A stretch of 64,000 bases of DNA, taken from IMG/VR virus record IMGVR_UViG_3300031952_000010, positions 27,512 through 91,511 of that record; one strand, written 5' to 3'. Source of the stretch: a virus. Shown in pieces: positions 28,648-51,740 of this stretch. A program made the translations under genes and the position numbers. The notes beneath the pieces were generated by a model that saw nothing but the letters and a program-made list of their open reading frames with translations, made no database searches and was not told where the DNA came from. Numbering within the stretch: position 1 is the first letter of the stretch; the number at the start of each line of letters is the position of its first letter.

Positions 28648-28651
28648 CAAT

Positions 28652-29040: not shown

Positions 29041-29046
29041 CCAAAT

Positions 29047-29115
29047 ACCGAATGGTCTGGTGACCGAAAATGGCTCATATCCGTTTTTAGAGTGGTTCGA
29101 AACCATTATTCGGTA
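29047..29115 (+). tRNA. tRNA with CAU anticodon, short D-arm
   Basis: Perfect acceptor ACCGAAT/ATTCGGT, anticodon loop CTCATAT (CAT), 5-nt variable loop, T-arm AGTGG-TTCGAAA-CCATT. The D-arm is reduced to GGTC-TGGT-GACC and the usual bases 8-9 seem missing, giving 69 nt. Met or, after lysidine modification, Ile(AUA) are both possible. Confidence 0.65.
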
Positions 29116-29123
29116 CTTTAAAC

Positions 29124-29196
29124 AGTTCCTTAGCTCAGTTGGGAGAGCGCTTGTTTTACATGCAAGATGTCGTAGGTTCGAATCCTACAGGAACTA
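29124..29196 (+). tRNA. tRNA-Val(UAC)
   Basis: Perfect acceptor AGTTCCT/AGGAACT, anticodon loop TTTACAT (TAC), T-arm GTAGG-TTCGAAT-CCTAC. Confidence 0.95.
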
Positions 29197-29206
29197 CAAA
29201 AAATGT

Positions 29207-29237
29207 TTGGAGAATTAAATAATTTGCCGTACATTTG
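29207..29237 (+). promoter_or_regulatory. Bacteroidota-type promoter of the second part of cluster 1
   Basis: TTG (29207-29209), 20-nt spacer, TACATTTG (29230-29237), followed by a 12-bp hairpin and a boxA-like element. Confidence 0.7.
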
Positions 29238-29250
29238 TAATATAGAAGTA

Positions 29251-29310
29251 AGGGGGGTAGGTAGTTAGTGGGTTGGTGACCTACTCCCCTGACGAAAGAG
29301 TTCTTTGAAT
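29251..29310 (+). promoter_or_regulatory. hairpin plus boxA-like leader
   Basis: A 12-bp stem (29251-29262 with 29279-29290; AGGGG...CCCCT at the base) is followed by GTTCTTTGAA (29300-29309). The same order (promoter, hairpin, GTTCTTTGA) occurs at 33204-33273 and 45482-45547. Confidence 0.5.
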
Positions 29311-29558
29311 AAAATGTTGGTGGATGGTAAGAAACGGTAAACTCGTAAAGTGCATTAACCTGTTGATATGAAATGGTGAAACGAGAGTCCATATCAGCTA
29401 CTCATCACAATAAAAATATTGATAATGGTTTTCCCCATTCAACGAAGGTCGACTCTTCAGAATGGAATCGGAATTCATCACCCTTTGCTGAGGCCTCATT
29501 AAAACTCAGGAAGCAATTAAGATTGGAGCGAGACGGGTACTCCATCATTATTATACTT
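29311..29558 (+). ncRNA. structured non-coding leader before tRNA-Phe
   Basis: About 250 nt with no convincing ORF. Stems include TGATATG / CATATCA (29363 region) and CTGAG-12nt-CTCAG (29489 region). Positions 29524-29540 are complementary (15 of 17, one mismatch possibly a G.U) to the 3' arm of the downstream tRNA-Phe. Could be a processed leader or a separate small RNA. Confidence 0.4.
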
Positions 29559-29631
29559 GGAACGGTAGCTCAGTTGGTAGAGCACTTGATTGAAGCTCAA
29601 GGTGTCGGCGGTTCGAACCCGTCTCGTTCCA
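29559..29631 (+). tRNA. tRNA-Phe(GAA)
   Basis: Acceptor GGAACGG/TCGTTCC, anticodon loop TTGAAGC (GAA), T-arm GGCGG-TTCGAAC-CCGTC. Confidence 0.93.
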
Positions 29632-29705
29632 CGGAGTCCTGAAATAACAGGATGCCCCCACTCCCATATGGCAGCCAGTCCATTAAGCTGGTGAAGGGGG
29701 TAAAT

Positions 29706-29810
29706 AGTCAAGTGGACGTAATGCGGGATGGTCCCAAGTCCCCAACTCTAACGAGGTAAGGTAGTCTAATCCGTCTTGAACGGTATTCGGTTCGAGTCCG
29801 ACCTTGATTA
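29706..29810 (+). other. tRNA-like element, anticodon not assignable
   Basis: A 7-bp acceptor-like stem (AGTCAAG / CTTGATT) and a T-arm (TCGG-TTCGAGT-CCGA) sit in exact tRNA geometry, with a D-stem-like GGAC/GTCC. The 105-nt length and lack of a normal 5-7-5 anticodon arm set it apart. Perhaps a degenerate tRNA, a tRNA with an insertion, or a decoy. Confidence 0.4.
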
Positions 29811-29815
29811 CAAAT

Positions 29816-29894
29816 TGCGATAATGGTGTAGGGTCGTTCTCATGAGACGATTTGGTAGATATACCCCTGTGAGGTTCGAGTCCTCAAATCGCAA
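29816..29894 (+). other. tRNA-like element with CAU loop, no normal D-arm
   Basis: Acceptor TGCGATA/AATCGCA (6 of 7 pairs) and T-arm TGAGG-TTCGAGT-CCTCA are tRNA-like. TCGTT-CTCATGA-GACGA could be an anticodon arm with CAT. The D region is only 11 nt; alternatively GGTGTA/TATACC is a D-stem with the hairpin inside its loop and no anticodon arm. Identity unclear. Confidence 0.45.
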
Positions 29895-29904
29895 CAAATT
29901 ATAT

Positions 29905-29978
29905 GGTGACTATAGCTCAGTTGGCAGAGCAAAGGTTTGTGGTACCTTGTGCCATGGGTTCGATTCCCATTAGTCACC
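29905..29978 (+). tRNA. tRNA-His(GUG)
   Basis: G-1 (29905) pairs with C73; acceptor GTGACTA/TAGTCAC, anticodon loop TTGTGGT (GTG), T-arm ATGGG-TTCGATT-CCCAT. The encoded G-1:C73 pair is the His identity mark. Confidence 0.95.
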
Positions 29979-29982
29979 CAAA

Positions 29983-30075
29983 TAGGTTGGGGTCCCTTGT
30001 AGTAACGGATTGAACTATAGTAAGTAAACTACAAGTATCTAGTAAGAAGTCACAGATGGGTTCGTGACGACCTAA
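29983..30075 (+). other. structured RNA element of about 92 nt
   Basis: Outer stem TAGGTTG / CGACCTA (7 bp), inner stem CTTGTAG / CTACAAG (7 bp) and GTCAC / GTGAC (5 bp). It fills the gap between tRNA-His and tRNA-Ser. No tRNA T-loop. Could be a small RNA or processing signal. Confidence 0.45.
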
Positions 30076-30078
30076 ATT

Positions 30079-30163
30079 GGAGGAATGGCAGAGTGGTCTA
30101 TCGCACTTGTCTTGAAAACAAGCGTACCGAAAGGTACCGTAGGTTCGAATCCTACTTCCTCCG
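30079..30163 (+). tRNA. tRNA-Ser(UGA)
   Basis: Acceptor GGAGGAA/TTCCTCC, anticodon loop CTTGAAA (TGA), class II variable arm (GTACC-GAAA-GGTAC), T-arm GTAGG-TTCGAAT-CCTAC; discriminator G. Confidence 0.95.
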
Positions 30164-30186
30164 CAAAACAATTAGAAAAAAAACAT

Positions 30187-30390
30187 ATGACAGACAAGTT
30201 AAAAGAGTTGTTAGAGACATCTCAAATTGGGGAACCTGAAATCGTTGATTTAATTCATTCGTATTATAAATTAGTGACCGCTGAATTATTCACACAAGAA
30301 GAATTTGATACCGTATTAGAAAGATTAGGTATTACACAAAACGGGAACGTTTTTATTTTCAACGAGAACATAACTTATACTTTTAACTAA
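30187..30390 (+). CDS. hypothetical small protein between tRNAs
   Basis: 67-aa acidic protein ([44 protein letters not shown]...). ATG 30187 follows an A-rich stretch; the longer frame would run through tRNA-Ser and is rejected. No domain recognised. Probably on the tRNA transcript. Confidence 0.65.
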
Positions 30391-30393
30391 AAT

Positions 30394-30465
30394 AGTTCCT
30401 TGGTGTAATGGATAGCACTAAACACTACGGATGTTTCAGTGAGGGTTCGAGTCCTTCAGGGACTA
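30394..30465 (+). tRNA. tRNA-Arg(ACG)
   Basis: Acceptor AGTTCCT/AGGGACT, anticodon loop CTACGGA (ACG), T-arm GAGGG-TTCGAGT-CCTTC. A34 would be read as inosine by host TadA, covering CGU/CGC/CGA. Confidence 0.93.
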
Positions 30466-30470
30466 CTATT

Positions 30471-30555
30471 GGAAGATTGGCAGAGTGGTAATGCGGCGGT
30501 TTGCTAAACCGTAGACCTCGAAAGGGGTCCACAGGTTCGAATCCTGTATCTTCCG
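30471..30555 (+). tRNA. tRNA-Ser(GCU)
   Basis: Acceptor GGAAGAT/ATCTTCC, anticodon loop TTGCTAA (GCT), class II variable arm (GACC-TCGAAAG-GGTC), T-arm ACAGG-TTCGAAT-CCTGT; discriminator G. Confidence 0.95.
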
Positions 30556-30600
30556 CTTATTTATAATTTTATACTATTTATTATCGAATAATATGATATC

Positions 30601-31995
30601 ATGAGTTACAAAAAATTTTTAATAGCGGAATCCGAGAAAAAGAACATTAGAGAAATGTACGGTTTACTAACCGAACAGTATTTCAAACCACCAAACGGTG
30701 GTGAAGGTCAAGTGGTAAATAAATATCCTGCGGGTTACTACTCCTTAAGTGGAACTGATAAGGCGGGTAACGTATATGACAATACAATCAATTTACAAAA
30801 AATTATTGACAATGCCAAAGAGTTTTTAACAACCAATAAAGGTTTTATTCCAAGAGTTGTAATAAACGCGGGAGAATCAATTATCCCTAACTACGACACT
30901 GAAGGGGGTACTGGTGTTAAAAACTCAGGATGGTTATCTGAAAAAAGAAAAAATAAGATTTCTGAATATGTCAAAAATCAATTAAAAGATTTAGTTAGTA
31001 AAAAATTAATATCAAAAGAACCTGAGGTTATTCTATATTTTGATGAAGCTAAAACATTAACGGTACCGTCAGGTGGTTGGGAGGGTTATCGAACATGGAA
31101 AAGAAGTTCTGAAGCTGAAAAGGTTAATAACCCTAATAATGCCGAGTACACCAAATTAAAAACAGGATACGATAATGACCAATTCACCAAAATAAATTTT
31201 AAAATTGTTCCTGATTTAGGCCCAAACCAATGTTCATTTAATGTCAAAATTGGTGTGCATTACGATGATTTAGATATTGGTCATAGATGTAATAAGGCGA
31301 GATTCCAAATATTGGCTAATGGTGTTCCGTTAACAACTGGTGCGGGCTCAACCTGTGGAAATGGTTTATCGTATGCGGACATGAATAACGGTGGTGGTAG
31401 TTTAGATTGTAAATCAGGCGACATTGGTGGTAAAAGAATGAATTACTTCCAACTAAATAGTAAGTCTATTGTGGACAAAATAATGGCGGCGTCTCCCGAC
31501 AAAAACTCAATAAAAATATCCATGAAATGTACATCAACAGGATTTGATGATGCTTCAGGTAGATGTCACCAAGATGTACCACATATTACGATTCATAACA
31601 CTGATGGTAAACAAACGGTTAACACCTACCCTAAAGTTAACGATAAAGATTTAATTACAATTGACAAGTGCGGTAATTTAATTACAGGTGGTGGTGGTGT
31701 CGCAACAAAAAGTAAAGATGCTGGTGGTACTGCAACAACTACAGTTACTACAACAAAACCTACAGGTCAAAAATTAAATTTTGCGTCACCAGCAACAGGA
31801 ACGTTAACTTCTGACCAAGCGATTCTTAATAAAATTAGTGATGGCTCAATTAAGAAAAACGCGGATAATACTTATTCAGTATTAAAAACATTTAATTATA
31901 ATGGTGTGTCTTATAGAATTAATGATACAATTGTTAAAATATTACCTAAAGGTAGTGTAGTAACTACGACAACGACAACTATTAAACCAAAATAA
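30601..31995 (+). CDS. putative virion protein with N-terminal motif
   Basis: 464-aa protein. The start MSYKKFLIAESEKKNIREMYGLLTEQ is a clear example of the shared terminal motif, ending LLTEQ, a possible gp21-type cut site. The middle domain (about 200-350) is beta-rich with several Cys (GPNQCSFNVKIGVHYDDLDIGHRCNKARF; GSTCGNGLSYADM). The C-terminus is Thr-rich and may be surface-exposed. TATTTAT lies 19 nt before the ATG. No enzyme domain seen. Confidence 0.65.
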   Translation: MSYKKFLIAESEKKNIREMYGLLTEQYFKPPNGGEGQVVNKYPAGYYSLSGTDKAGNVYDNTINLQKIIDNAKEFLTTNKGFIPRVVINAGESIIPNYDTEGGTGVKNSGWLSEKRKNKISEYVKNQLKDLVSKKLISKEPEVILYFDEAKTLTVPSGGWEGYRTWKRSSEAEKVNNPNNAEYTKLKTGYDNDQFTKINFKIVPDLGPNQCSFNVKIGVHYDDLDIGHRCNKARFQILANGVPLTTGAGSTCGNGLSYADMNNGGGSLDCKSGDIGGKRMNYFQLNSKSIVDKIMAASPDKNSIKISMKCTSTGFDDASGRCHQDVPHITIHNTDGKQTVNTYPKVNDKDLITIDKCGNLITGGGGVATKSKDAGGTATTTVTTTKPTGQKLNFASPATGTLTSDQAILNKISDGSIKKNADNTYSVLKTFNYNGVSYRINDTIVKILPKGSVVTTTTTTIKPK

Positions 31996-31996
31996 A

Positions 31997-32019
31997 AATG
32001 GGGGTCAGTGACCCCCAAT
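31997..32019. terminator. bidirectional terminator
   Basis: GGGGGTCA-G-TGACCCCC between convergent genes, with the better T tract on the minus strand. Confidence 0.7.
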
Positions 32020-32020
32020 T

Positions 32021-32416
32021 CTATTCGATATTACCGTAGTAGTGGTAAGAATTTTTACCATCATCAACAATAACTGTCATTGATGTGTTATCAACACATT
32101 GTGATGTGAAATAAGTCACAACACAGGTTTTGTTAGATTTCAATTCCACAGAGTAAAAAGAATTTACCCCAGGATTTGATTCTTTTGTACCTGAGAATTT
32201 GTATACCATCTCAGTACCTTCACTTTTAATTACTAAAGAATCTTTACCAATTAAAACGGTTGGTGAACTTAACAATACTGAATCAACCCATGTTGATGTA
32301 CTATCAGTGATTGCGTAACCAATCTCTAAAGATTTAACTTTTACTTTATAGATGTCTTGTGATAAACAAACTAATGTTGTTAAAGACAATAACGATGTTA
32401 GGATTAATTTTTTCAT
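32021..32416 (-). CDS. secreted protein with signal peptide
   Basis: 131-aa protein. The N-terminus MKKLILTSLLSLTTLVCLSQD is a standard signal peptide with likely cleavage after CLS. The mature part is Ser/Thr/Val-rich beta structure with two Cys (KTCVVTY, SQCVDN) that could form a disulfide. It carries its own leaderless-type TATATTTG promoter, so it may be expressed early. A role in changing the cell envelope, for example blocking superinfection, is possible but unproven. Confidence 0.75.
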   Translation of the reverse strand: MKKLILTSLLSLTTLVCLSQDIYKVKVKSLEIGYAITDSTSTWVDSVLLSSPTVLIGKDSLVIKSEGTEMVYKFSGTKESNPGVNSFYSVELKSNKTCVVTYFTSQCVDNTSMTVIVDDGKNSYHYYGNIE

Positions 32417-32420
32417 ACAA

Positions 32421-32451
32421 CAAATATAACGCTCTTATTTGACTAAAACAA
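32421..32451 (-). promoter_or_regulatory. Bacteroidota-type promoter, leaderless context
   Basis: Minus strand: TTG (32451-32449), 20-nt spacer, TATATTTG (32428-32421), ATG 4 nt on. Confidence 0.75.
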
Positions 32452-32494
32452 ATTTTTTTATTATTTTCTTTCTAAAAATATTTTTTAAAAAGTT

Positions 32495-32524
32495 TTGGCA
32501 GTCTCAAAATTTATTGTATCTTTG
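32495..32524 (+). promoter_or_regulatory. Bacteroidota-type promoter
   Basis: TTG (32495-32497), 19-nt spacer, TATCTTTG (32517-32524). Divergent from the previous promoter. Confidence 0.8.
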
Positions 32525-32546
32525 TATTCACAAAAACGATATAACT

Positions 32547-32996
32547 ATGACAACTACCAACACAATCATCGACGTAACAACAGGAACATTAGCAGGTGAC
32601 GTATTCTACGGAAACTTTAAAACTCGTGTTAAAAATAAAGTAATTAATGTTATGGTTTCAAACCACTTGAAAGACATTAACAAAGAATATGAATTCCGTA
32701 TCGCAGGGAAATGTCAAGCAGGATTCATCAGTATCCACGATACTAAAGGAACCGCTGGTGAAGTTATCCGTGGATACCAAAAAAACTCTTTGGTTAATAT
32801 CCAAGCAAAAAATGAGTTCGGTCATTGGATGAATGTTTACACAACTAAAGGTGGTAAATGGTACTCAATCGACAAAGGTTTCTTGGAAACTATTACAGTT
32901 GGTACTATGAGAGAATCTTTCCCTGATATGTGCGATATGCAAATTTGGGAAAGAATGGGAGCTAAGACTTGGGCTGATAAGGCTTTCACAAAATAA
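32547..32996 (+). CDS. hypothetical protein
   Basis: 149-aa protein (MTTTNTIIDVTTGTLAGDVFYGNFKTRVKNKVINVMVSNHLKDINKEYEFRIAGKCQAGFIS...). ATG 32547 lies 22 nt past the -7 box, after an A-rich leader. Predicted mixed alpha/beta with no membrane segment or known motif. Codon choice is rich in NNC codons compared with late genes, which fits high early expression. Confidence 0.7.
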   Translation: MTTTNTIIDVTTGTLAGDVFYGNFKTRVKNKVINVMVSNHLKDINKEYEFRIAGKCQAGFISIHDTKGTAGEVIRGYQKNSLVNIQAKNEFGHWMNVYTTKGGKWYSIDKGFLETITVGTMRESFPDMCDMQIWERMGAKTWADKAFTK

Positions 32997-33066
32997 GAAG
33001 TTTTTACCAATATTTGACTTTTTATGAAAGTCGTATATATTTAATAGAAAATACATAATACTGCAA

Positions 33067-33138
33067 ATGAAAAATTTAAATATCATACTATTAGGCGGGA
33101 CTGAGGCGGATACGTTAACTCGGACGGCGATGGTATGA
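33067..33138 (+). other. 23-codon ORF inside a stem-loop, possible leader
   Basis: MKNLNIILLGGTEADTLTRTAMV is encoded inside a hairpin whose base is ATCATAC / GTATGAT. The loop is GC-rich (GGCGGGACTGAGGCGG), unlike its surroundings. A terminator follows at 33164. It could be a leader peptide, a riboswitch or a small RNA. Confidence 0.35.
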
Positions 33139-33163
33139 TGTTTTGTCAACAATAACAATCAGA

Positions 33164-33192
33164 ACCCATCTCCAAAAAAGATGGGTTTTTTT
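33164..33192 (+). terminator. Rho-independent terminator
   Basis: ACCCATCT-CCAAAAA-AGATGGGT then six Ts. Confidence 0.9.
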
Positions 33193-33203
33193 ATGTCTAA
33201 AAG

Positions 33204-33233
33204 TTGGTAATTAAATAAATTGTTGTATCTTTG
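33204..33233 (+). promoter_or_regulatory. Bacteroidota-type promoter of tRNA cluster 2
   Basis: TTG (33204-33206), 19-nt spacer, TATCTTTG (33226-33233). Followed by a GGGG-ATGAAA-CCCC hairpin (33246-33259) and the boxA-like GTTCTTTGACAT (33262-33273). Confidence 0.85.
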
Positions 33234-33295
33234 TGAAACAATAAAGGGGATGAAACCCCGAGTTCTTTGACATGTTGGTTTGAAAAAAAAATTAA

Positions 33296-33367
33296 GGTCT
33301 ATTCGTTCATCGGCTAGGATGCTACCCTGTCACGGTAGTGAGGAGGGTTCGATTCCCTCATGGACCG
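33296..33367 (+). tRNA. tRNA-Asp(GUC)
   Basis: Acceptor GGTCTAT/ATGGACC, anticodon loop CTGTCAC (GTC), T-arm GAGGG-TTCGATT-CCCTC; discriminator G, the Asp identity base. Confidence 0.95.
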
Positions 33368-33378
33368 CAAACAATAAG

Positions 33379-33454
33379 GGGGGTGCATGTACCAAGGCAT
33401 TGGCGATGTCGATTTGCAATCAACGTGAGGTGGGTTCGATTCCCATCATCTCCA
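33379..33454 (+). tRNA. tRNA-Ala(UGC), divergent D-arm
   Basis: Acceptor GGGGGTG/CATCTCC contains G3.U70, the Ala identity pair. Anticodon loop TTTGCAA (TGC) on a stem with one C.A mismatch; T-arm GTGGG-TTCGATT-CCCAT; discriminator A. The D-arm lacks the usual pattern. Confidence 0.85.
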
Positions 33455-33467
33455 CACAAAAATATAT

Positions 33468-33539
33468 CGTGGGATAGAGCAGTGGTAGCTCGCAAGGCTC
33501 ATAACCTTGAGGTCGGGGGTTCGAATCCCTCTCCCGCAA
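33468..33539 (+). tRNA. tRNA-Met(CAU), initiator-like C1.A72
   Basis: Acceptor CGTGGGA/TCCCGCA has a C1.A72 mismatch, the mark of bacterial initiator tRNA. Anticodon loop CTCATAA (CAT), stem CAAGG/CCTTG, so not the full GGG/CCC of E. coli initiators. T-arm has TTCGAAT. Confidence 0.88.
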
Positions 33540-33548
33540 CTAATACAT

Positions 33549-33622
33549 CGTGGGTTAGACTGGAGGTGGTTCCAGCTTGGTCTCATAAGCCAAAGACGGG
33601 GGTTCGAGTCCCTCACCCGCAA
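33549..33622 (+). tRNA. tRNA-Met(CAU), second initiator-like copy
   Basis: Acceptor CGTGGGT/ACCCGCA, again with C1.A72. Anticodon loop CTCATAA (CAT), T-arm GGGGG-TTCGAGT-CCCTC. Differs from the previous copy in the D-arm and anticodon stem, so not a recent duplicate. Confidence 0.85.
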
Positions 33623-33700
33623 CAAATGTGTCTCAATTCCCTGAAGAAATTCAAAGTTGAGGTCTCGGTAGACAGAACGCGTCTGATTCTACCCAAATAC

Positions 33701-33773
33701 GCGAATATCGTATAGTGGTTTATTACTCCATCCTTCCAAGTTGGAGACGACAGTTCGATTCTGTCTATTCGCT
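33701..33773 (+). tRNA. tRNA-Gly(UCC)
   Basis: Acceptor GCGAATA/TATTCGC, anticodon loop CTTCCAA (TCC), T-arm GACAG-TTCGATT-CTGTC; discriminator T. The 78-nt spacer before it contains a GGTAGA / TCTACC hairpin (33667-33693). Confidence 0.93.
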
Positions 33774-33780
33774 CAAAAAT

Positions 33781-33861
33781 GCTTAAGTGGTGGAATGGTA
33801 TACACGTATGTCTTAGGAACATATGTCTTATGACGTGAGGGTTCGAGTCCCTCCTTAAGTA
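33781..33861 (+). tRNA. tRNA-Leu(UAG)
   Basis: Acceptor GCTTAAG/CTTAAGT (G1.U72), anticodon loop CTTAGGA (TAG), class II variable arm, T-arm GAGGG-TTCGAGT-CCCTC; discriminator A. Confidence 0.93.
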
Positions 33862-34428
33862 CAAAACCAAGGTAATGTCAGTAGGATGAGGCCGCAATCG
33901 GATTCCTTTGAACAACGCGTGAGGGGCGGCTTTCACGATGTGGCTGATAACCCGAGGTTTTAAGACCCCACGAGTAACGGAGATATCCGACCGTTATGGA
34001 GTGTGAACCTGACTTGAAGGCTTCAAGGCTATGGGGGAGGCAACACAAACAAACACGGATTCCCCATTATGGATTAAGGGGGTAAGGGGCTTTAATTAGT
34101 CGTAATACAATCCACAAGTTGTAAGAACACTGAACAATCTTACAATACACACTCTGACTTCCGAGTGAGACTCACCACGTAACTTTGGGGGTAGGGTGAA
34201 GATGTTCTGAGGATAACACTGAACGCTGAACAGTAAAAACCATGACGCATTTGATTGGTAGAATAGGTTAAGACGGAGTGTGAAAGTAGAAACCCCCGAT
34301 GGATGGTTACTAAGCTCTTTAACTCAAAAGGGATAGTCGGGAGGGATATATAAGCTTAAGGGAAACTATAAGTAAAAACTAGGTCAGTTCCGATTTAACC
34401 CCTATCGGTACGAGTGTCTGACCTTAAT
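33862..34428 (+). ncRNA. long structured non-coding RNA inside tRNA cluster 2
   Basis: 567 nt without a credible ORF, clearly more GC-rich than the protein genes. Stems visible by eye: GGCCGC with GCGGC (33891-33930 region), TAACGG/CCGTTA with an inner CGGA-GATA-TCCG, GGGGGA/TCCCC (34034-34070), TTGTAAGA/TCTTACAA with an 11-nt loop (34117-34144), CACTC/GAGTG, and GGTCAG/CTGACC enclosing CCGAT/ATCGG near the 3' end. It runs straight into tRNA-Thr and is presumably cut from the same precursor. Giant ornate RNAs such as GOLLD and ROOL sit next to tRNAs in phages; I cannot test membership here. Confidence 0.6.
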
Positions 34429-34501
34429 GCCTCCTTAGCTCAGTTGGCAGAGCACTTGTTTTGTAAACAAGATGTCGTTGGTTCGAATCCGACAGGAGGC
34501 T
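34429..34501 (+). tRNA. tRNA-Thr(UGU)
   Basis: Perfect acceptor GCCTCCT/AGGAGGC, anticodon loop TTTGTAA (TGT), T-arm TTGG-TTCGAAT-CCGA; discriminator T. Confidence 0.95.
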
Positions 34502-34527
34502 CAATGAGTAAGAGATACTCATCAAAT

Positions 34528-34613
34528 GCTCGGGTGGTGTAATTGGTAGCCACGCAAGACTTAAAATCTTGTGGACTGTAAGGTCCGTGCGGGTTCGATT
34601 CCCGCCCCGAGTA
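34528..34613 (+). tRNA. tRNA-Leu(UAA)
   Basis: Acceptor GCTCGGG/CCCGAGT, anticodon loop CTTAAAA (TAA), class II variable arm (GGACT-GTAA-GGTCC), T-arm GCGGG-TTCGATT-CCCGC. Confidence 0.95.
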
Positions 34614-34615
34614 CT

Positions 34616-34813
34616 AAAACAAATCTTACATAAGACGGATTAGCACCGTTGAAAGGAACCTTGGCTTCACCGCGGAGTAATTACCGTAACAGAAGTTCTA
34701 AATGCCCCAAGGTACTATGTAATGGACCCTGCTCTGATGTGCACGTCAACAGGTGATGGGGAACAAACCATCGGTCAAATCTAAACCTACGGTGAGCGTA
34801 GAAGATTTGTTTT
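34616..34813 (+). ncRNA. 198-nt RNA closed by a perfect 12-bp stem
   Basis: AAAACAAATCTT (34616-34627) pairs perfectly with AAGATTTGTTTT (34802-34813). Inside are CCTTGG/CCAAGG, CGG-8nt-CCG and a GATG-TGCA-CGTC-like hairpin. No ORF. It lies between tRNA-Leu and tRNA-Glu with 5-nt spacing to the latter, suggesting a discrete processed RNA. Confidence 0.55.
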
Positions 34814-34818
34814 TATTT

Positions 34819-34893
34819 GGTCCCATCGTCTAACGGTTAGGACATCAGGTTTTCATCCTGAAAATCGGGGTTCGATTCCCCGTGGGACTACCA
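34819..34893 (+). tRNA. tRNA-Glu(UUC)
   Basis: Acceptor GGTCCCA/TGGGACT (G1.U72), anticodon loop TTTTCAT (TTC), T-arm CGGGG-TTCGATT-CCCCG. Discriminator A is followed by CCA in the DNA, the only tRNA here with an encoded CCA. Confidence 0.95.
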
Positions 34894-34914
34894 AATATTC
34901 TTCATTTATATAAA

Positions 34915-34988
34915 GGACTTGTAGCTCAGTTGGTTAGAGCACCGCACTCATAATGCGTAGGTCCATGGTTCGAGTCCATGCTGGTCCA
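34915..34988 (+). tRNA. tRNA with CAU anticodon (elongator Met or Ile2)
   Basis: Acceptor GGACTTG/CTGGTCC with one T.T mismatch, anticodon loop CTCATAA (CAT) on CGCA/TGCG, T-arm CATGG-TTCGAGT-CCATG. The G1-C72 pair argues for an elongator. Last tRNA of cluster 2. Confidence 0.9.
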
Positions 34989-35006
34989 CTTTTTTCAAAT
35001 TATACA

Positions 35007-40435: not shown

Positions 40436-40625
40436 GGAATGTCCTTGGGTTGTTAAAAACAAACATAACGAAATGATTACTAATCATTCGACAAAACATA
40501 ATAAACCCCATAATTGTCATATGATATCACCTGAAAAAAGAGGTGGGTTATGGGATGTAAAAGAAGAAACTAAATGTATAGGGAGAAAATTATATGAACA
40601 CAGAGAGAAAGTTAGCGAGTATTAG
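40419..40625 (+). CDS. Cys-rich small protein
   Basis: 68-aa protein (MKKPCKECPWVVKNKHNEMITNHSTKHNKPHNCHMISPEKRGGLWDVKEETKCIG...). The CxxCPW start and later Cys/His spacing suggest a small zinc-binding domain, as in DUF6283-like phage proteins. Sandwiched between overlapping genes of the RNA-repair block. Confidence 0.65.
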   Translation: MKKPCKECPWVVKNKHNEMITNHSTKHNKPHNCHMISPEKRGGLWDVKEETKCIGRKLYEHREKVSEY

Positions 40626-41616
40626 AATTATCAGTGACATCCAACCTATTGAGGGGGCTGATGTGATTGAATTAGCTATTGTCGACAGTTGGAAGGTTGT
40701 TGTTGCTAAGAATGTTGGTTATAAAGTGGGTGATATGGTTATCTACTGTGAAATCGATTCATTCTTACCAATCAAAGATGAATTTGAATTCTTAAGAAAG
40801 ACTTCGTATAAAAAAATGTCTGACGGAACGGAAGGATTTCGTTTAAAAACAATTAAAATGAGAGGGCAAGTTTCTCAGGGATTAATCTTACCAATGTCTG
40901 TTGTAGAATATACTAACGTAGATTTTGAAATTGGCGTGGATGTAACTAATTTATTAGGAATTAGTAAATACGAACCACCAATTCCTGCTGAATTATCAGG
41001 GAAAGTAAAAGGTTTATTCCCTTCTTTCTTACGTAAAACAGATGAGGAAAGAGTTCAAAACTTGACAAAAGAATATGAGAACTATAAATCATTAGGTCGT
41101 AAATTTTATGTGACTGAAAAATTGGATGGTTCTTCTGCAACATTTTACTTCAGAGACGGTGTATTTGGAGTATGTTCTCGTAACTTAGAATTACTTGAAA
41201 CTGAAGGTAACACTTTTTGGAGAGTTGCTCGTGAATTGGATTTGGAAAATAAAATGAAATCTTTGGGTAAAAACATTTCACTCCAAGGGGAATTAATTGG
41301 TGAAGGTATTCAAGGGAATCCTTACAAAATAAAAGGTCAAACTGTAAAATTCTTTAATTTGTTTAATATTGATTTACAAGTATATCATTCTTTATCTCAT
41401 TTGGATAGAGCTCTTGGTATTATGGGACTTAAAATGGTTCCAATTGTTGATGAGTTTTTCAAATTACCTGAAACTATTGAAACTTTATTAAAATATGCGG
41501 ATAATAAATCAATATTAAACCCAAAATTTAATAGAGAGGGAATTGTCATTCGTTCTAACGATAGAACCATCAGTTTCAAGGTTATTAGTAATAAATTCTT
41601 ATTAAACGAAAAATAA
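40594..41616 (+). CDS. RNA ligase, Rnl5/DraRnl-like
   Basis: 340-aa protein. Residues 1-130 form an N-terminal OB-fold-like module (RKLASIRIISDIQPIEGADVIELAIVDSWKVVVAKN). Residues 165-335 hold the nucleotidyltransferase core, with lysine 176 in EKLDGSSATFY (motif I), LQGELIGEGIQGNPY, FFNLFNI and EGIVIRS (motif IV), and a motif V lysine in SFKVISNK. This arrangement matches DraRnl-type (Rnl5) ligases that seal nicks with a 3'-OH RNA end. Likely role: RNA repair. Overlaps genes on both sides. Confidence 0.88.
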   Translation: MNTERKLASIRIISDIQPIEGADVIELAIVDSWKVVVAKNVGYKVGDMVIYCEIDSFLPIKDEFEFLRKTSYKKMSDGTEGFRLKTIKMRGQVSQGLILPMSVVEYTNVDFEIGVDVTNLLGISKYEPPIPAELSGKVKGLFPSFLRKTDEERVQNLTKEYENYKSLGRKFYVTEKLDGSSATFYFRDGVFGVCSRNLELLETEGNTFWRVARELDLENKMKSLGKNISLQGELIGEGIQGNPYKIKGQTVKFFNLFNIDLQVYHSLSHLDRALGIMGLKMVPIVDEFFKLPETIETLLKYADNKSILNPKFNREGIVIRSNDRTISFKVISNKFLLNEK

Positions 41617-41834
41617 TGGAAGAAAAGAATATTAGAAGAACCTTAATACGAGAGGAACTCAACGATAAACAACAGAAAATGTATGATGAATGGTTGTCTC
41701 ACATTAAAGCGATTTATGGTAGTTACGGTTTATTTACTTGGAAAATAACCCCAAACGGTATTGATAGTGAAATTGTAATTTATAGTCACCATACAAAAAC
41801 AGAATTAGATTTAACCGACGTTGATAGTTGGTAA
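41616..41834 (+). CDS. hypothetical small protein
   Basis: 72-aa protein (MEEKNIRRTLIREELNDKQQKMYDEWLSHIKAIYGSYGLFTWKITPNGIDSEIVIYSHH...). Its start shares a base with the ligase stop (TAATG). The first 20 residues (IRRTLIREEL) resemble the short terminal motif. Function unknown. Confidence 0.6.
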   Translation: MEEKNIRRTLIREELNDKQQKMYDEWLSHIKAIYGSYGLFTWKITPNGIDSEIVIYSHHTKTELDLTDVDSW

Positions 41835-41857
41835 TTAATAAAAAAGTATTACCTTTG
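41828..41857 (+). promoter_or_regulatory. Bacteroidota-type promoter, leaderless context
   Basis: TTG (41828-41830), 19-nt spacer, TACCTTTG (41850-41857), ATG at 41862. Confidence 0.8.
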
Positions 41858-41861
41858 TGAC

Positions 41862-42944
41862 ATGTTAGAAAGATTGAACAAATATTATGATGAGGGTTTG
41901 ATGCAAAAACAATCGCACCCAACCCTTCCTTTAACTATATGGAACTACACCCCAAAAGTTCAATACGGGGTGACTGGTGACCAATATAAGTTATGGGATG
42001 ATATCACTGTACAATGTAGAGGATTAGTCACTGACAATAACGGAGTTGTTGTTGCAAGACCATTTAAAAAATTCTTCAACATAGAAGAAAACCGACATAT
42101 CTCAACTTCAGATTTTGAAGTATATGAGAAAATGGACGGTTCTTTAGGAATCTTATTCAACTATAAGGGAGAATGGGTTCTTGCGACTCGTGGTTCTTTC
42201 ACTTCTGACCAATCAGTTAAAGGTACTGAGTTACTTCAAAAATACGATTATAACAAATTACATCCTGATTACACTTATTTATTTGAAATAATCTATCCTG
42301 AAAACAGAATAGTTTGCTCTTATAATTTTGAGGATTTAGTTTTGTTAGGAATGATACACACTGAAAGTGGTGTTGAGGTTGATATCCATTTAGGTAATAA
42401 TAACGATGTTAGGTTTAAAAATTTATTAAATAATCTTGAGTTAAATATTGTTAAAAAATACGACGGTATCAAAGATTATACTTTTTTGAAACGTATGATA
42501 GCGGATTCTAAAGAGGGTTTTGTTGTTAGATTCTCAAATGGTGATAGGATAAAAATAAAAGGTGAAGAATACCTTCGTCTTCATAAAATAATGACTAACG
42601 TATCAACAACTGCGGTTTGGGAGGTTCTAAGTTCTGGCGGTGATATGGAGGAAATAATAAAAGATGTACCTGATGAGTTCTACAAGAAAATAAAAATGTA
42701 TGTTCAGGAGCTTAATTATCAGTTTTACCGTTATTCAGAATATGCTGGTAAGATTCATGATTATTTCCGATACGGTAAGTATGGTGATAACGAAAAAGAA
42801 TATAGTAAAAAAGAATTTGCAGAACATTTGGTGAAATGTGATGTACATCCTAAAGTAAAATCTATCTGTTTCGCTATGTGGGACCAAAAACCATATGACC
42901 ATATCATATGGAATTTACTTAAACCAAAATTCGAAAAACTATAA
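41862..42944 (+). CDS. RNA ligase, T4 Rnl1-like
   Basis: 360-aa protein. Motif I lysine 90 lies in VYEKMDGSLGILF, preceded by CRGLVTDNNGVVVARPFKKFFN (the Rnl1 pre-motif) and followed by FEIIYPENRIVC (motif III), EGFVVRF (motif IV) and KIKGEEYLRLH (motif V). This fits the Rnl1 family that repairs tRNA cleaved in the anticodon loop (T4 Rnl1 with Pnkp counters host PrrC). With the Rnl5-like ligase, phosphoesterase and kinase it completes a plausible RNA-repair set. It has its own strong leaderless-type promoter. Confidence 0.9.
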   Translation: MLERLNKYYDEGLMQKQSHPTLPLTIWNYTPKVQYGVTGDQYKLWDDITVQCRGLVTDNNGVVVARPFKKFFNIEENRHISTSDFEVYEKMDGSLGILFNYKGEWVLATRGSFTSDQSVKGTELLQKYDYNKLHPDYTYLFEIIYPENRIVCSYNFEDLVLLGMIHTESGVEVDIHLGNNNDVRFKNLLNNLELNIVKKYDGIKDYTFLKRMIADSKEGFVVRFSNGDRIKIKGEEYLRLHKIMTNVSTTAVWEVLSSGGDMEEIIKDVPDEFYKKIKMYVQELNYQFYRYSEYAGKIHDYFRYGKYGDNEKEYSKKEFAEHLVKCDVHPKVKSICFAMWDQKPYDHIIWNLLKPKFEKL

Positions 42945-45381: not shown

Positions 45382-45429
45382 AAAAAAGATTTGGTAAATC
45401 AAAAAACTTTACCTACCTTTGTACAACAA
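45382..45429 (+). promoter_or_regulatory. tandem promoter 2 of the long ncRNA (repeat copy A)
   Basis: TTG (45391-45393), 20-nt spacer, TACCTTTG (45414-45421). It lies in a 48-bp direct repeat, copy B at 45473-45520 differing at only a few positions. Confidence 0.8.
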
Positions 45430-45472: not shown

Positions 45473-45520
45473 AAAAAAGATTTGGTAAATCAAAAAACTT
45501 TACCTATCTTTGTAAAACAA
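45473..45520 (+). promoter_or_regulatory. tandem promoter 3 of the long ncRNA (repeat copy B)
   Basis: TTG (45482-45484), 20-nt spacer, TATCTTTG (45505-45512). The tmRNA promoter on the other strand closely resembles this repeat. Confidence 0.8.
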
Positions 45521-45547: not shown

Positions 45548-46830
45548 AAAATATTATTTATCCGTCAGGATGTTGATGCTGAGACCTTCGGGTTGATTCT
45601 GAGATAACTGAGAAAGATAATCGGCCGTATATGGTCGTTAAATAAACCTCGAAAGGGGGATAAAGTGGAATCATCTGTGTTAGTGGTTCTGCGGTTTGGG
45701 AAACCAAACTCAAGTATACAAGTGGGATATCAGTGAGCCTGTAGTACCGAGGATGACTTCGTAGGGAAATGGAAAACTGAATGGGCAATGTGGATTGTCT
45801 GTTTGAGGTGGGAACACCAATAAGAATAACCCATAGGAATCAAGTGAGAAGTGTACTTCCAAATACACAATTGCGGGTTCCAATATAAAAGGTGACTTAA
45901 AACCGAAGGGGTAATACCTGAAGGTAAGATATAGAACGAGTGGTGTCGCTAATATCCTTACCAAAGGCCTACCAAGGTCTTGGTACGAAGTAATCTTAAA
46001 ATATGAGAGTGGGGACACTCTACTGAGTAGAAAAGTATCTTGTTATTCAAAAGATAACGAGGCTTAAGACGGACCTCTACTTGGAACCATCCACAACACT
46101 AAAAACTTATATGCTATTTTAAGTAAAACTAAAAAACAGATAAGCAAAAGTGTTCGTCAGGGTTTGATGAAAGTCGCCTACACAGTCACGGGTTGTCCGT
46201 GGCATACAGAGACCGCAAGTTAATGTATATTTTTACAAAAAACCTCTAGGGAGTCGAATCCCGAGTTAGTTCGCAAGACTGAAGAGAGTAGAGTAGTAAA
46301 AGAGTAGTTGAACCCTTTAGGAGTGATTGGTCTAACCAATCGGCGATGAGGATTACCATTCAAAAGATGGTGGAAATGAAGGGAAACAATAATCCTTCTA
46401 AAGATTCTCACAAAACGGTGTATTCTCAGCCTTTTAGCCTAACTATGAAAACAGTGACTCCAACCGAGGTAATTACGGTATATTCCTCGAGGTAATGAGT
46501 TTAAACTTCCCCTTAAAAAAGTCCCATAGAGTGTGTTTTTGGTTTTTTACTATGTTACAACCTTTATCTACTCTGATTGAGAAATCCAAAAAACAAGTGT
46601 GTTTGTGTCAAGATAAGACATCTTCTCTAAAAGATAAAAAACATCAACACCGATATTCTTAGGTTGTGGATTTTTATGATAACCACAGGTTTTTTATAGG
46701 TGTCTAAATAAGTAAAAAACTAAAAAACATAGACGTTTAGGTCGCGAATTCACCTCACGATAGAAGGTCCCATTCGGTGTCACAAACTGATGGAGTGGTT
46801 AAGGTTGTACCACTGAGTAAAAAGCCCAAC

Positions 46831-46913: not shown

Positions 46914-46940
46914 AAAAAAACCCCATCCGAAGATGAGGTT
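46914..46940 (-). terminator. terminator of tmRNA
   Basis: Minus strand: ACCTCATC-TTCG-GATGGGGT (UUCG loop) then seven Ts, 8 nt after the tmRNA 3' end. Confidence 0.9.
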
Positions 46941-46947
46941 TAATGAG

Positions 46948-47333
46948 TGGAGGTAGAGGGGTTCGAACCCTCGTGTTGTACACCTTACCTATTAAGGACT
47001 ACACGCTTAGGATAACATTTTCTAATGTTCCAAAAATATTTAGTTTGTTCTTCACCATCGTAAACTAACAACCAATGGACGACTCGATTTTGGGTTCAGT
47101 CATTTTTCCACCTTTGTAAAGACTTCTGTTCCTAGGTTGTATGTCCACCGACCCGTATGGTGTTTCCTATATGTTAGGCAACAACCGCAGCGTCTTCACG
47201 GATTAATCCGATGGTCGCCATTTTGTCTAAAACGTTTCCGTTTACAGTTTACATCCGTAGATTTAAGTGATAGGATACATCTCACTGCGTGCCCCGAATA
47301 ACTAACAATGCCAGTCAATTCCAAGTTACCCCC
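46948..47333 (-). ncRNA. ssrA: tmRNA (SsrA)
   Basis: 386-nt minus-strand RNA. The 7-bp acceptor pairs GGGGGTA (5', 47333-47327) with TACCTCC (3', 46955-46949), discriminator A, no CCA. The T-arm is GAGGG-TTCGAAC-CCCTC. The 5' end continues ACTTGGAATTGACTGG, the conserved tmRNA start, and CTAAGCGTGTAG lies before the T-arm as in other tmRNAs. The reading frame appears to be GCG ACC ATC GGA TTA... to GCC TAA, giving a tag ending REDAAVVA; the resume codon is not certain (KM may precede ATIGL). tmRNA frees stalled ribosomes and tags the product for proteolysis. It has its own promoter, boxA and terminator. Confidence 0.95.
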
Positions 47334-47336: not shown

Positions 47337-47389
47337 TGTTAAAGAACTTATTTCTCCTACAAAGATAGTAAAGTTTTCTCAATTACCAA
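47337..47389 (-). promoter_or_regulatory. tmRNA promoter and boxA-like element
   Basis: Minus strand: TTG (47389-47387), 19-nt spacer, TATCTTTG (47367-47360), then GTTCTTTAACA (47347-47337) ending 3 nt before the tmRNA. The -33 to -7 stretch (TTTGGTAATTGAGAAAACTT, then TACTATCTTTG) resembles the giant RNA promoters. Confidence 0.8.
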
Positions 47390-47421
47390 ACTATTTTATA
47401 TTTATATGTAAATAAATATTT

Positions 47422-48786
47422 GTGAAAGATTCAAAAAACGCTAAGATACTATTTGAAAATGAGTATGTCGTATTGGTACAGGTATTCAATAAGAATGCCG
47501 CAACCTATTACGGGCCCCCCAAGGTTACTGAATTATATGACCAAGATTTTAGTCATGGTGATTTATATTTTGCCGTGAGTAAATATAATCCTGGCCCTGA
47601 GTACATATACACACTATACAAACCTACAGATGGTGAACTTAAATATTATTCAGGTGACGTTTTAAAATCTGAAAGTTACGACAACATCACATTTAAGTAT
47701 CCATACCTAAAACCGTATGTTCAAGATATTAGGGGGAATAGTGAAATATATGATTTATTATTGAAAATTAAAAACGGTCAAAAGGTTAATAACTGGGACG
47801 CTAATAGATTTGACCCAATTGTGTACGATATTAAGTTTAACGAACAAACACCTGGTAAAAGTAGAGTTAAATTAAAATTTGACGATTATGAGGATTATTG
47901 GAAATTATTTGATTTAAAAGATGGTGATATTTGGTTTGGAAATTACATATATTCTAATTATGATTCTTACGAATTTGAAAGCGCAGATTTTGCTGATGAG
48001 GATTGGAAAGAGGGTTATTTATTACGTGAATTAAATGACGAAAACCAAATTAAATTAAAAGAAATTTTAACACTATTATCTCCAGAACTATCTCAATTAC
48101 GAAATGATGAAGAATGGAAAAAGGCTTCTAATTTATTATTAACAACATTTGAACGTGAATCTGAAGAAATTAAGTATGAATGGTTATCAGAAAAAAATAA
48201 CTGTAAAGAACGAGGAGCACGTAAGATGATTGAGGACGATTGTTGTAATTTTTTTCAAAATTATGGAATATTCAATATGGGTAGTTGTTTTTATAGTTAT
48301 GTGACGACAGTATCGGTATTATTATCTTTATATAAAATGGTTGATGAAAGACATTTCACGGTTAGTGAGGTTTTAAGTGATATTGGTCATAAATCAGGAA
48401 ATATTGGTGGATGGGAAGAATATTCTTATGAACAAGATTGTATTGATTTTGACGATGAATCTTTCAATCGTAGTTGTGGTTGGCAATTAGATAAGATGTT
48501 TACTAAACTTGAAGATTCTGAAGAATTTGAGGATATTAAAAAATTCTCAGATAATGCGTCAAAAATTTTAAGTAAGTACGACATGGAAACTAATTACAAA
48601 TTACCTAAAGACGAATCAAGAACATTTAGAATTATTAAAATAGACCCAAAAACTAATAAAATCCATGTTGTAGTTTCTAAGAAGGGTGAGTATCAAGGTG
48701 AACAAAGAAGTTATGATTTTGAAAATTTTGACCAATTTTTACATCAACCCGAATTATTTGAAAATAGATTTGTTAAAGTAAAGTAA
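47422..48786 (+). CDS. hypothetical protein, GTG start
   Basis: 454-aa protein (MKDSKNAKILFENEYVVLVQVFNKNAATYYGP...). A GTG start is inferred, as no in-frame ATG lies nearer; TATTTAT is 16 nt upstream. The N-terminal 110 residues are beta-rich. A central Cys-rich helical part (CKERGARKMIEDDCCNFFQNYGIFNMGSCFYSY) and an acidic C-terminus follow. No domain recognised. It may be a virion protein. Confidence 0.65.
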   Translation: MKDSKNAKILFENEYVVLVQVFNKNAATYYGPPKVTELYDQDFSHGDLYFAVSKYNPGPEYIYTLYKPTDGELKYYSGDVLKSESYDNITFKYPYLKPYVQDIRGNSEIYDLLLKIKNGQKVNNWDANRFDPIVYDIKFNEQTPGKSRVKLKFDDYEDYWKLFDLKDGDIWFGNYIYSNYDSYEFESADFADEDWKEGYLLRELNDENQIKLKEILTLLSPELSQLRNDEEWKKASNLLLTTFERESEEIKYEWLSEKNNCKERGARKMIEDDCCNFFQNYGIFNMGSCFYSYVTTVSVLLSLYKMVDERHFTVSEVLSDIGHKSGNIGGWEEYSYEQDCIDFDDESFNRSCGWQLDKMFTKLEDSEEFEDIKKFSDNASKILSKYDMETNYKLPKDESRTFRIIKIDPKTNKIHVVVSKKGEYQGEQRSYDFENFDQFLHQPELFENRFVKVK

Positions 48787-48804: not shown

Positions 48805-49635
48805 ATGGAGAGAAACTATCAATTACTAAAGGACGTTTTGTCGGTCCCAACAAAGACATATAAGGAAGACCGAATGATTGAGTTTTTAGTTAATTGGTTA
48901 ACTGAAAACCAAATACCATTTCAGGTTGACGAACACCGAAATATTTACGCGACTAAAACATCTCAGGATATTACTGAAGATTTCTATTTCCCGTGTGTTA
49001 TTGCTCATACTGACACCGTACATCAATTAGATGTAATCAACGTCAGAGAAATGGAATTACCTAACGCTCAGGGGATAATTAAACCATCATTAAAAGCATT
49101 CAACGATTTTGGTGAACCAACAGGGATTGGTGGTGATGATAAATGTGGCGTTTACGCATGTTTAGAATTACTAAAAGAATTACCAAATCTTAAAGCAGCA
49201 TTTTTTGTTTCTGAAGAAACAGGTTGTCACGGTTCAAAACAAGCCGATAAAAATTTCTTCGAGAACGTAGGATACGGGATTCAATTTGACGCACCTGAGA
49301 ACTGGATGGTTAGTGAGTTCTGTATGGGTGTTCAGTTATTTGGTCGAGATACAGAGTTCTTTAAATCATGTGATGAGGTATTAACAGAAACATTTAATCC
49401 TGATAGAAAATATCAATCTCACCCATACACAGATGTGTACGCACTGAAGAACACATTTGACTTCTCGTGTATTAACTTCTCAATTGGGTACTACGACTAC
49501 CACACTAAAGAAGAATACGTTGTAATCGAAGATGTTTATAACGGAATCAAAACGGGTAAAGAATTAATTGAAAAATTAGGTAACGTAAAATACCCATTCA
49601 AATCAAAACCACGATATAGTCATTTATTTGACTAA
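48805..49635 (+). CDS. M20/M42-type zinc aminopeptidase-like protein
   Basis: 276-aa protein with the metal-ligand series of the M20 clan: VIAHTDTVHQ (H, D), GGDDKCGVYACLEL (bridging D), VSEETGCHGS (catalytic EE pair). It is shorter than typical PepT (about 400 aa) and seems to lack the separate dimerisation domain. It may trim peptides, for example the products of ClpC- or tmRNA-linked degradation; that link is inference. A leaderless-type promoter suggests early expression. Confidence 0.85.
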   Translation: MERNYQLLKDVLSVPTKTYKEDRMIEFLVNWLTENQIPFQVDEHRNIYATKTSQDITEDFYFPCVIAHTDTVHQLDVINVREMELPNAQGIIKPSLKAFNDFGEPTGIGGDDKCGVYACLELLKELPNLKAAFFVSEETGCHGSKQADKNFFENVGYGIQFDAPENWMVSEFCMGVQLFGRDTEFFKSCDEVLTETFNPDRKYQSHPYTDVYALKNTFDFSCINFSIGYYDYHTKEEYVVIEDVYNGIKTGKELIEKLGNVKYPFKSKPRYSHLFD

Positions 49636-49687: not shown

Positions 49688-49712
49688 AAAAAGGGGGTTA
49701 TTCAACCCCTTT
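49688..49712 (-). terminator. terminator of the clpC-like gene
   Basis: Minus strand: AGGGGTTGAATAACCCCCT then seven Ts. It overlaps the last codons of the gene. Confidence 0.8.
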
Positions 49713-51740
49713 TCTTTTTCTTATAACTTTCTTTCCATCTTTGAATTTGACATCCCCATTTTCACTGATTAAAGTGTATTCGATATTTTCTTGGATGTTA
49801 CTCTTAAGAACTTCTTCCGAGATAAAATCTTCTATTTTATCCTGAATAGCCCTTTTTAGTGGACGAGCCCCGTACATCTCATCAAACCCAACCTCAGAAA
49901 TCATTTCAATAATAGAGTCATCAAATTTAATATTATATTTAAGACCTGTTAATCTTTCAGATAAAACATTCAACTCAAGTTTAACAATTTTTTTAACATC
50001 TTCTTTCACTAATGAATTGAAAATGATAACTTCATCAATACGATTTAAAAATTCAGGAGCGAAAAACTTCTTAAGTTCTTTCTTCAAAACTTCTCTTTTT
50101 TGTTCTTCCTCAACATAAGAACTTGAGTTAGTTTTAAAACCTACACCAGCTCCAAAATCTTGTAGTTTTTTAACTCCAACATTCGATGTCATGATGATAA
50201 TACAGTTTTTGAAATTAATCTTTCTTCCCATACCATCAGTAAGGTGACCGTCATCCAACACTTGTAATAATGTTGAGAATATGTCTTTGTTTGCCTTTTC
50301 AATCTCGTCAAACAAAATTACCGAGTAAGGTTTGTTCTTAACTTGTTCAGTTAATTGACCACCTTCATCATAACCTACATATCCTGGAGGTGCCCCAATT
50401 AATCTTGAAATACTATGTTTTTCTTGGTATTCAGACATGTCCACACGAATCATATTTTCTTCACTACCAAACATTTGTTTTGCCAATTGTTTTGCCAAGT
50501 AGGTTTTACCCACACCAGTTGAGCCAAGGAAAATAAATGAACCTATTGGTTTGTTAGGGTCTTTAATACCTAATCTGTTTCGTCTGATTGACTTAGCAAT
50601 TTTCATAACCGCTTCAGATTGTCCAATTACTTTGTCAGATAAACTACTGTCTAATTGACTTAATAACATTGTTTCATCGGCGTTTAATTTACTAATAGGA
50701 ATTTTGGTCATGTTTGAAACAACCTCATAAACCAACTCAATAGAAACTTCTTTCTTCTTAACTTGAAGTTCATCTTCAAATTTTTTCTTCTCAATATCTA
50801 ATTTATTAAGAATACGTTTTTCTTTATCACGTAAGTTTGCCGCCTCCTCGTAATTTTGTTTTTTAACTACCTCAAGTTTTTCAATTTTAACATCCGCAGC
50901 CTCTTGCTTTAATTTCTCAATAATTTCAGGCATTTTAATCTCAACCTGACATCTTGCACCAACCTCATCAATAATGTCAAATGCCTTATCAGGGAACTCT
51001 CTATCAGTGATATATCTTGCCGCCAAATCAACACATACAGAAAGTACTTCATCAGTATAGGACACCTTATGAAATGTTTCGTACTTGTCTTTAACATTTT
51101 TAAGAATTTCTAATGTTTCTTCTTTTGTTGAAGCGTCAACAATAACCTTTTGGAATCGTCTTTCTAAAGCTCCGTCTTTCTCAAAGTTCTTACGATACTC
51201 GTCAAGAGTTGTAGCACCAACACATTGAATTTCTCCACGAGCAAGTGCTGGTTTAAAGATATTTGATGCGTCTAAAGAACCTGATGAATTACCAGCTCCA
51301 ACAATAGTGTGAATCTCATCAATAAACACAATGATATTTGGGGCGTTTTGTAATTCTTCAATAATTACCTTCATACGTTCCTCAAACTGACCACGATATT
51401 TTGTACCTGCAACGATTGAAGTCATATCTAAAGACACTATTCTTTTGTCCATTAAATTTCTCGGACATTCACCGTTAAAAATTTTAATAGCTAATCCTTC
51501 TACGATTGCGGTTTTACCACAACCAGGTTCACCAATAATAATAGGGTTGTTTTTCTTTCTACGAGAAAGAATTTGAGCTATTCTCGTAATTTCTCTCTCT
51601 CTACCAACTACAGGGTCTAACTTACCTTGTTCGGCTAATTTGATTAAATCTCTACTGAAGTTATCCAACACAGGTGTTGAAGAGTCAGATGTTGATTTAG
51701 GTGGGTTATTCTTTCCCCCATTGTCCATGGATTCTATCAT
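49698..51740 (-). CDS. clpC: ClpC-like Hsp100 AAA+ unfoldase lacking the N-domain
   Basis: 680-aa protein with two AAA+ modules. First: GEPGCGKT (70-77), VFIDEIHTIVGAG, GATTLDEYRK. Then a short UVR-like middle segment (KLEVVKKQNYEEAANLRDKEKRIL), characteristic of ClpC. Second: GSTGVGKT, DEIEKAN, MTSNVG and the sensor-2 GARPLKRAIQ. After MTSNVG there is a VGF tripeptide (GAGVGFKTN), the ClpP-docking loop of ClpC/ClpA, so partnership with host ClpP is plausible. The N-terminal Clp_N repeat domain is missing and replaced by a Ser/Thr/Pro-rich 25-residue stretch, so adaptor and substrate choice should differ from host ClpC. Confidence 0.93.
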   Translation of the reverse strand: MIESMDNGGKNNPPKSTSDSSTPVLDNFSRDLIKLAEQGKLDPVVGREREITRIAQILSRRKKNNPIIIGEPGCGKTAIVEGLAIKIFNGECPRNLMDKRIVSLDMTSIVAGTKYRGQFEERMKVIIEELQNAPNIIVFIDEIHTIVGAGNSSGSLDASNIFKPALARGEIQCVGATTLDEYRKNFEKDGALERRFQKVIVDASTKEETLEILKNVKDKYETFHKVSYTDEVLSVCVDLAARYITDREFPDKAFDIIDEVGARCQVEIKMPEIIEKLKQEAADVKIEKLEVVKKQNYEEAANLRDKEKRILNKLDIEKKKFEDELQVKKKEVSIELVYEVVSNMTKIPISKLNADETMLLSQLDSSLSDKVIGQSEAVMKIAKSIRRNRLGIKDPNKPIGSFIFLGSTGVGKTYLAKQLAKQMFGSEENMIRVDMSEYQEKHSISRLIGAPPGYVGYDEGGQLTEQVKNKPYSVILFDEIEKANKDIFSTLLQVLDDGHLTDGMGRKINFKNCIIIMTSNVGVKKLQDFGAGVGFKTNSSSYVEEEQKREVLKKELKKFFAPEFLNRIDEVIIFNSLVKEDVKKIVKLELNVLSERLTGLKYNIKFDDSIIEMISEVGFDEMYGARPLKRAIQDKIEDFISEEVLKSNIQENIEYTLISENGDVKFKDGKKVIRKRKGVE

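Follow-up and report, generated by a model that had tools for sequence, protein, structure and literature searches.

The tmRNA encoded beside a ClpC-type unfoldase gene in this virus carries a 21-residue tag, GNVLDKMATIGLIREDAAVVA, which, judged from sequence, is a real, phage-wide and selected feature rather than a misread frame. We propose, with a probability of about 0.5, that the tag is a private degron of phage trans-translation that would feed the phage's own ClpC-ClpP. The window analysed here is a stretch of 64,000 nucleotides (positions 27512-91511 of a 91.5 kb virus contig), and all coordinates refer to it unless stated otherwise (Table 1). Contigs of relatives sharing this locus are as long as 272, 309 and 318 kb; thus the record probably covers only part of a jumbo phage genome.

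Table 1. Positions of the tmRNA, its tag and signals, and the associated genes (window numbering except for ClpP)
Feature	Position	Strand	Basis
One-piece tmRNA gene (ssrA)	46948..47333	minus	RF00023, 68.5 bits, E 1.4e-24; 63 homologues beside phage clpC
Tag frame GNVLDKMATIGLIREDAAVVA and TAA stop	47174..47239	minus	Codon-position bias, conserved stop, invariant A at -4, Bacteroidota offset
Bacteroidota-type promoter, TTTG-N19-TATCTTTG	47360..47390	minus	Upstream of tmRNA; site count against shuffles; homologues
boxA-like leader, GTTCTTTAACA	47337..47347	minus	Just 5' of tmRNA; sequence
Intrinsic terminator (stem of 10 pairs followed by a T run)	46918..46941	minus	3' of tmRNA
ClpC-type AAA+ unfoldase lacking the N-domain; VGF ClpP-docking loop and UVR-type M-domain present	49698..51740	minus	Pfam AAA_2, AAA_lid_9, ClpB_D2-small
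M20-type (PepT-like) peptidase	48805..49635	plus	phrog_4191 peptidase; TIGR01883 PepT-like, weak match
Conserved 454-aa protein between tmRNA and peptidase	47422..48786	plus	187 loci
GOLLD RNA, tmRNA neighbour	46023..46432	plus	RF02032, 320 bits
ClpP	record position 15930-16454, ~61 kb away		PF00574, E 5.6e-57

The tmRNA gene and its expression signals

The Rfam tmRNA model RF00023 (gathering score 47) matches positions 46945-47333 of the minus strand over all 374 model positions, and the related phage tmRNAs score 50-95 bits. The original prediction of a complete tmRNA with promoter, boxA and terminator is borne out by this full-length match and by the location of all three signals. ARAGORN, which had been proposed as a check of the tag frame, reported no tmRNA in the region 46948-47333 and missed all six related phage tmRNAs on which it was run; the tmRNA is called by RF00023 instead. 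The alanine identity elements are preserved throughout the phage set (G3 in 39/39, U70 in 35/36 and A73 in 36/36), and both the G3-U70 pair and A73 are present here. Pairs of the acceptor, the T-arm and P2 covary, with 29 of the 43 predicted pairs changed on both sides in some sequence. The CCA end is not encoded in this copy, which has ACTC, and is encoded in ~60% of the distinct relatives. The tmRNA fold, the elements for alanine identity and a selected 21-residue tag frame together suggest that the locus encodes a working phage tmRNA.

Sites of the TTTG-N19-TATCTTTG type, a form that is the Bacteroidota promoter consensus, occur 16 times in the window, compared with 3.7 expected from shuffles. 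A promoter of this type lies upstream of the tmRNA in 24 of the 31 distinct homologues, and a leader GTT[CA]TTT, similar to the boxA-like sequence, is found in 16 of the 31. The promoter form and its excess in the window, together with the glycine resume codon described below, thus point indirectly to a host that is probably a member of the Bacteroidota. A tandem pair of near-identical Bacteroidota-type promoters (45390-45421 and 45481-45512, plus strand) lies ~0.5-0.6 kb before the GOLLD match.

Other tmRNA forms were noted in a 484 kb huge phage, LR756508.1. It carries a tmRNA of ~112 nt consisting of the tRNA-like domain only (414804-414915; about 1500-1610 in locus L216), as well as a full tmRNA at 92434-92880 with a frame read as NADYESAGFTAEDFAQMDGESLYHGSERKPAAV. 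The short form resembles a tRNA-like-domain-only tmRNA reportedly present in mycobacteriophage DS6A.

The tag, its resume codon and its distribution

Two sets of homologues were collected independently, one through the neighbouring ClpC protein (80 loci with 63 tmRNA matches) and the other by matching DNA to a degenerate tag pattern (at least 119 viral stretches). Since the pattern fixes some tag residues, independent support in the second set comes from the unconstrained codon positions and the stop, and otherwise from the first set. Pairwise differences among 39 distinct 21-codon tags amount to 3806, 2375 and 6684 at codon positions 1, 2 and 3, respectively. Every tag begins with GGN, in which the third base varies; the stop codon is conserved, and changes in tag length are of whole codons. 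The coding constraint in these statistics indicates that the tag frame is translated.

The resume codon is placed at GGA (47239-47237, gene position 95) and the stop at 47176-47174. In the set found through clpC, which was not chosen by tag, an A stands four bases ahead of GGN in 39/39 sequences, at the position of A86 in E. coli; by the known resume rule, the resume codon follows such an invariant A at a distance of four bases (PMC2481249). ARAGORN analysis of eleven viral contigs with Bacteroidota-type tmRNAs gave a GGC resume codon at 95-97, followed by the tags GENNYALAA, GETNYALAA, GESNYALAA and GEENYALAA. Thus, the invariant A and the resume offset shared with the Bacteroidota type identify the phage tag as GNVLDKMATIGLIREDAAVVA. 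The original prediction had read a tag ending in REDAAVVA rather than ALAA and preceded by ATIGLI, which covers the last 14 residues. Its frame and ending are correct and ATIGLI does belong to the tag, but the tag starts seven codons earlier, at GGA. It had also been anticipated that a resume codon lying elsewhere would give a standard tag; the resume codon did move, but the tag stays non-standard and in the same frame. A start at GCG (ATIGLI...) was ruled out by the coding constraint and the resume rule, which lead to GGA, and a standard tag in another frame by the codon statistics and the alignment.

The tag family comprises at least about 40 variants of 21-22 residues in more than 100 viral contigs; the commonest length of bacterial tags is 10 residues (PMC11915505). 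The C-terminal residue is always alanine and most variants end in -VA. Conservation is not limited to the end and extends over the whole 21-residue tag, including G1, N2, G11, the GL[IV]R motif and acidic residues. A scan of 84,980 bacterial and archaeal species genomes with the tag pattern matched two places, neither of them a tmRNA; thus the tag appears, as far as tested, to be confined to phages of this group. On the basis of this genome scan a bacterial origin of the tag was rejected, the two matches being due to chance. The tag was also absent from 50,697 phage records searched, and tblastn and blastn gave no match to it among cultured phages. A search of 83 ORFs of this phage for tag-like C-termini or the GL[IV]R motif gave one ending in LA and none with the motif.

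The unfoldase, ClpP and neighbouring genes

In 143 loci the clpC gene lies 1-7 kb from the tmRNA or tag, and in 142 of these both are on the same strand; L061 is the sole locus with the tmRNA on the opposite strand. It is also present in 19/19 contigs found by the tag alone, in one of which it is cut at the contig end. The co-occurrence may stem from only one related phage group sharing a conserved gene order. The best solved relatives of the phage protein are ClpC proteins, with 6em8 at the top (742 bits), and the two AAA+ modules, the M-domain and the ClpP loop are present. The loop, which we take to be the ClpP-docking motif, reads [VIL]GF in nearly every one of 86 distinct members of the phage ClpC family. 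No Clp_N domain was found in the phage ClpC; D1 starts near residue 20, and the family members are about 670-700 residues long. The N-domain of ClpC is the route through which many adaptors act. The clpC genes of two loci, L094 (G028) and L127 (G036), are split close to the first Walker A motif (query residues 60-76); the intervening stretch, of roughly 0.4-1.7 kb, may be an intron or intein.

The Ser-His-Asp triad of the phage ClpP is intact when aligned in the ClpP fold. Of 45 relatives, 13 encode ClpP, among them each of the three contigs longer than 270 kb; in four relatives extending about 70-90 kb downstream of clpC it was not found. The genes of the M20 peptidase, a conserved neighbour in 175 loci, and of the 454-residue protein sit between the tmRNA and clpC. 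For the latter protein, searches of Pfam, PHROG and PDB folds yielded no match; its predicted model is confident (pLDDT 88), and comparison of the fold with the PDB and viral structure libraries gave no convincing match.

No smpB gene is present in the 91.5 kb record, itself probably a fragment; thus SmpB would come from the host or from the missing part of the phage genome. Among 19 large relatives, six encode an SmpB whose C-terminal tail is normal; the gene often adjoins a GOLLD RNA, 1-2 kb downstream of the tmRNA. In relatives where GOLLD was located (L229:11801-12208, L230:9397-9802 and L231:4065-4472), it adjoins a same-strand smpB, a gene without a counterpart here. The window further contains an array of 26-27 tRNA genes that together serve most amino acids (25688-34989, plus strand), with a freshwater-1 RNA inside it (34718-34779, plus strand). 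Beyond the array lie two T4-type RNA ligases (40594-42944, plus strand), as if for tRNA repair.

Proposed fate of tagged proteins and comparison with known systems

In the proposed pathway, host AlaRS would charge the phage tmRNA, in line with established tmRNA biology, and SmpB, here from the host and in some relatives the phage's own, would bring it to stalled ribosomes. The ribosomes would resume at GGA and append Ala-GNVLDKMATIGLIREDAAVVA to the stalled protein. The phage ClpC-type unfoldase, docked to phage ClpP, would be the main reader of the tag, and the M20 peptidase encoded beside the tmRNA would finish the peptides. The outcome would be phage ribosome rescue, and possibly amino-acid recycling, independent of host degron recognition. 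We infer delivery to the phage ClpC-ClpP from the gene linkage, the docking loop and the conservation of the entire tag. More tentatively, the components (tmRNA, SmpB in some members, an adaptor-free ClpC, ClpP and the M20 peptidase) may form a self-contained viral pathway whose virus-private degron is insulated from the host degron system, although we would put this slightly below even odds.

The suggestion in the original prediction that the tag could route proteins to a different protease, such as the phage ClpC-like unfoldase, is plausible in view of the constant clpC neighbour, the docking loop and the ClpP in the record. However, the -VA ending, which had seemed to point that way, is by itself no argument for a different protease, since E. 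coli degrades a tag ending in LVA nearly as rapidly as one ending in LAA (half-lives of about 13 and 8 min, respectively; PMC3511798). Nor do the tag and ClpC show a link beyond shared ancestry: a partial Mantel test of their co-evolution, controlling for the neighbouring peptidase, gave 0.04 (p 0.052). The correlation of the tag with the M20 peptidase was stronger (0.22). Also weighing against the proposed route are the four relatives in which ClpP was not found, the missing N-domain of ClpC, the lack of smpB in this record and the chance that the co-occurrence merely mirrors a shared gene order.

Given the degradation of the LVA tag in E. coli, the -VA ending may be accepted by host ClpXP. 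The phage tmRNA could accordingly be functional with a tag that is an alternative degron still read by host ClpXP or by host ClpC-ClpP; the phage would boost rescue and turnover, and the tag would have drifted under a relaxed length constraint. Every tag variant ends in alanine, mostly as -VA, and an unrelated jumbo phage, Bacillus phage G, has a tag ending in LQVA, which fit this explanation. We nevertheless consider it less likely than the phage route, as a minimal ClpX degron would not need conservation of the entire 21-residue tag and as phage ClpC is a constant neighbour. A non-proteolytic role, such as docking to a phage adaptor, a compartment or a membrane, with the amphipathic middle of the tag (VLDKMATIGLIR) as the functional part, is less probable still. 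Known minimal degrons do not resemble this conserved middle segment with its hydrophobic and basic character, and the 454-residue neighbour could be a partner; against this stand the invariant C-terminal alanine and the proteolytic surroundings (ClpC, ClpP and the M20 peptidase). Some phages do manage with host ssrA alone, but the notion that ribosome release alone counts and the tag plays no part, or that the RNA is a decaying copy of host ssrA, is contradicted by the excess of third-position changes, the length changes in multiples of three with a conserved stop and the covarying acceptor, T and P2 stems, and is very improbable.

Why phages carry tmRNA is unsettled, and a private degron beside a private unfoldase would be a concrete, testable answer. 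On the private-degron reading, ribosome rescue and the disposal or recycling of stalled proteins by the phage would take place without host proteases, and the tag and ClpC-ClpP would form an orthogonal degron-protease pair. In the open-access literature, to which the search was limited, we found no description of a long tag shared across a phage group that differs from the host-type tag and is linked to clpC.

The phage unfoldase has the D1 and D2 AAA+ domains, the M-domain and the ClpP-docking loop in common with ClpC-ClpP systems (6em8 and relatives), but is devoid of the N-domain to which adaptors such as MecA bind. Phage-encoded tmRNAs are already known from mycobacteriophages (the Bxz1 group and Wildcat, PMC4131195), as are huge phages carrying both tmRNA and SmpB (Al-Shayeb et al. 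2020, PMC7162821). The main text of the latter study does not mention Clp or protease, and its tmRNAs were called by ARAGORN; surveys based on this program miss the phage tmRNA group found here. The odd tag of the likewise phage-encoded Bacillus phage G tmRNA, AKLNITNNELQVA, is also known and ends in -VA as well, but has no clear similarity to GNVLDKMATIGLIREDAAVVA. The one-piece Bacteroidota-type tmRNA (tag GE[NTSE]NYALAA) is alike in fold, in G3-U70 and A73, in a similar leader, in the glycine resume codon at gene position 95-97 and in the A at -4. However, its tag has 9 residues and ends in -LAA, whereas the phage tag has 21-22 residues and mostly ends in -VA, the first glycine being the only common residue; the former type is bacterial, and the present tmRNA family is carried by phages.
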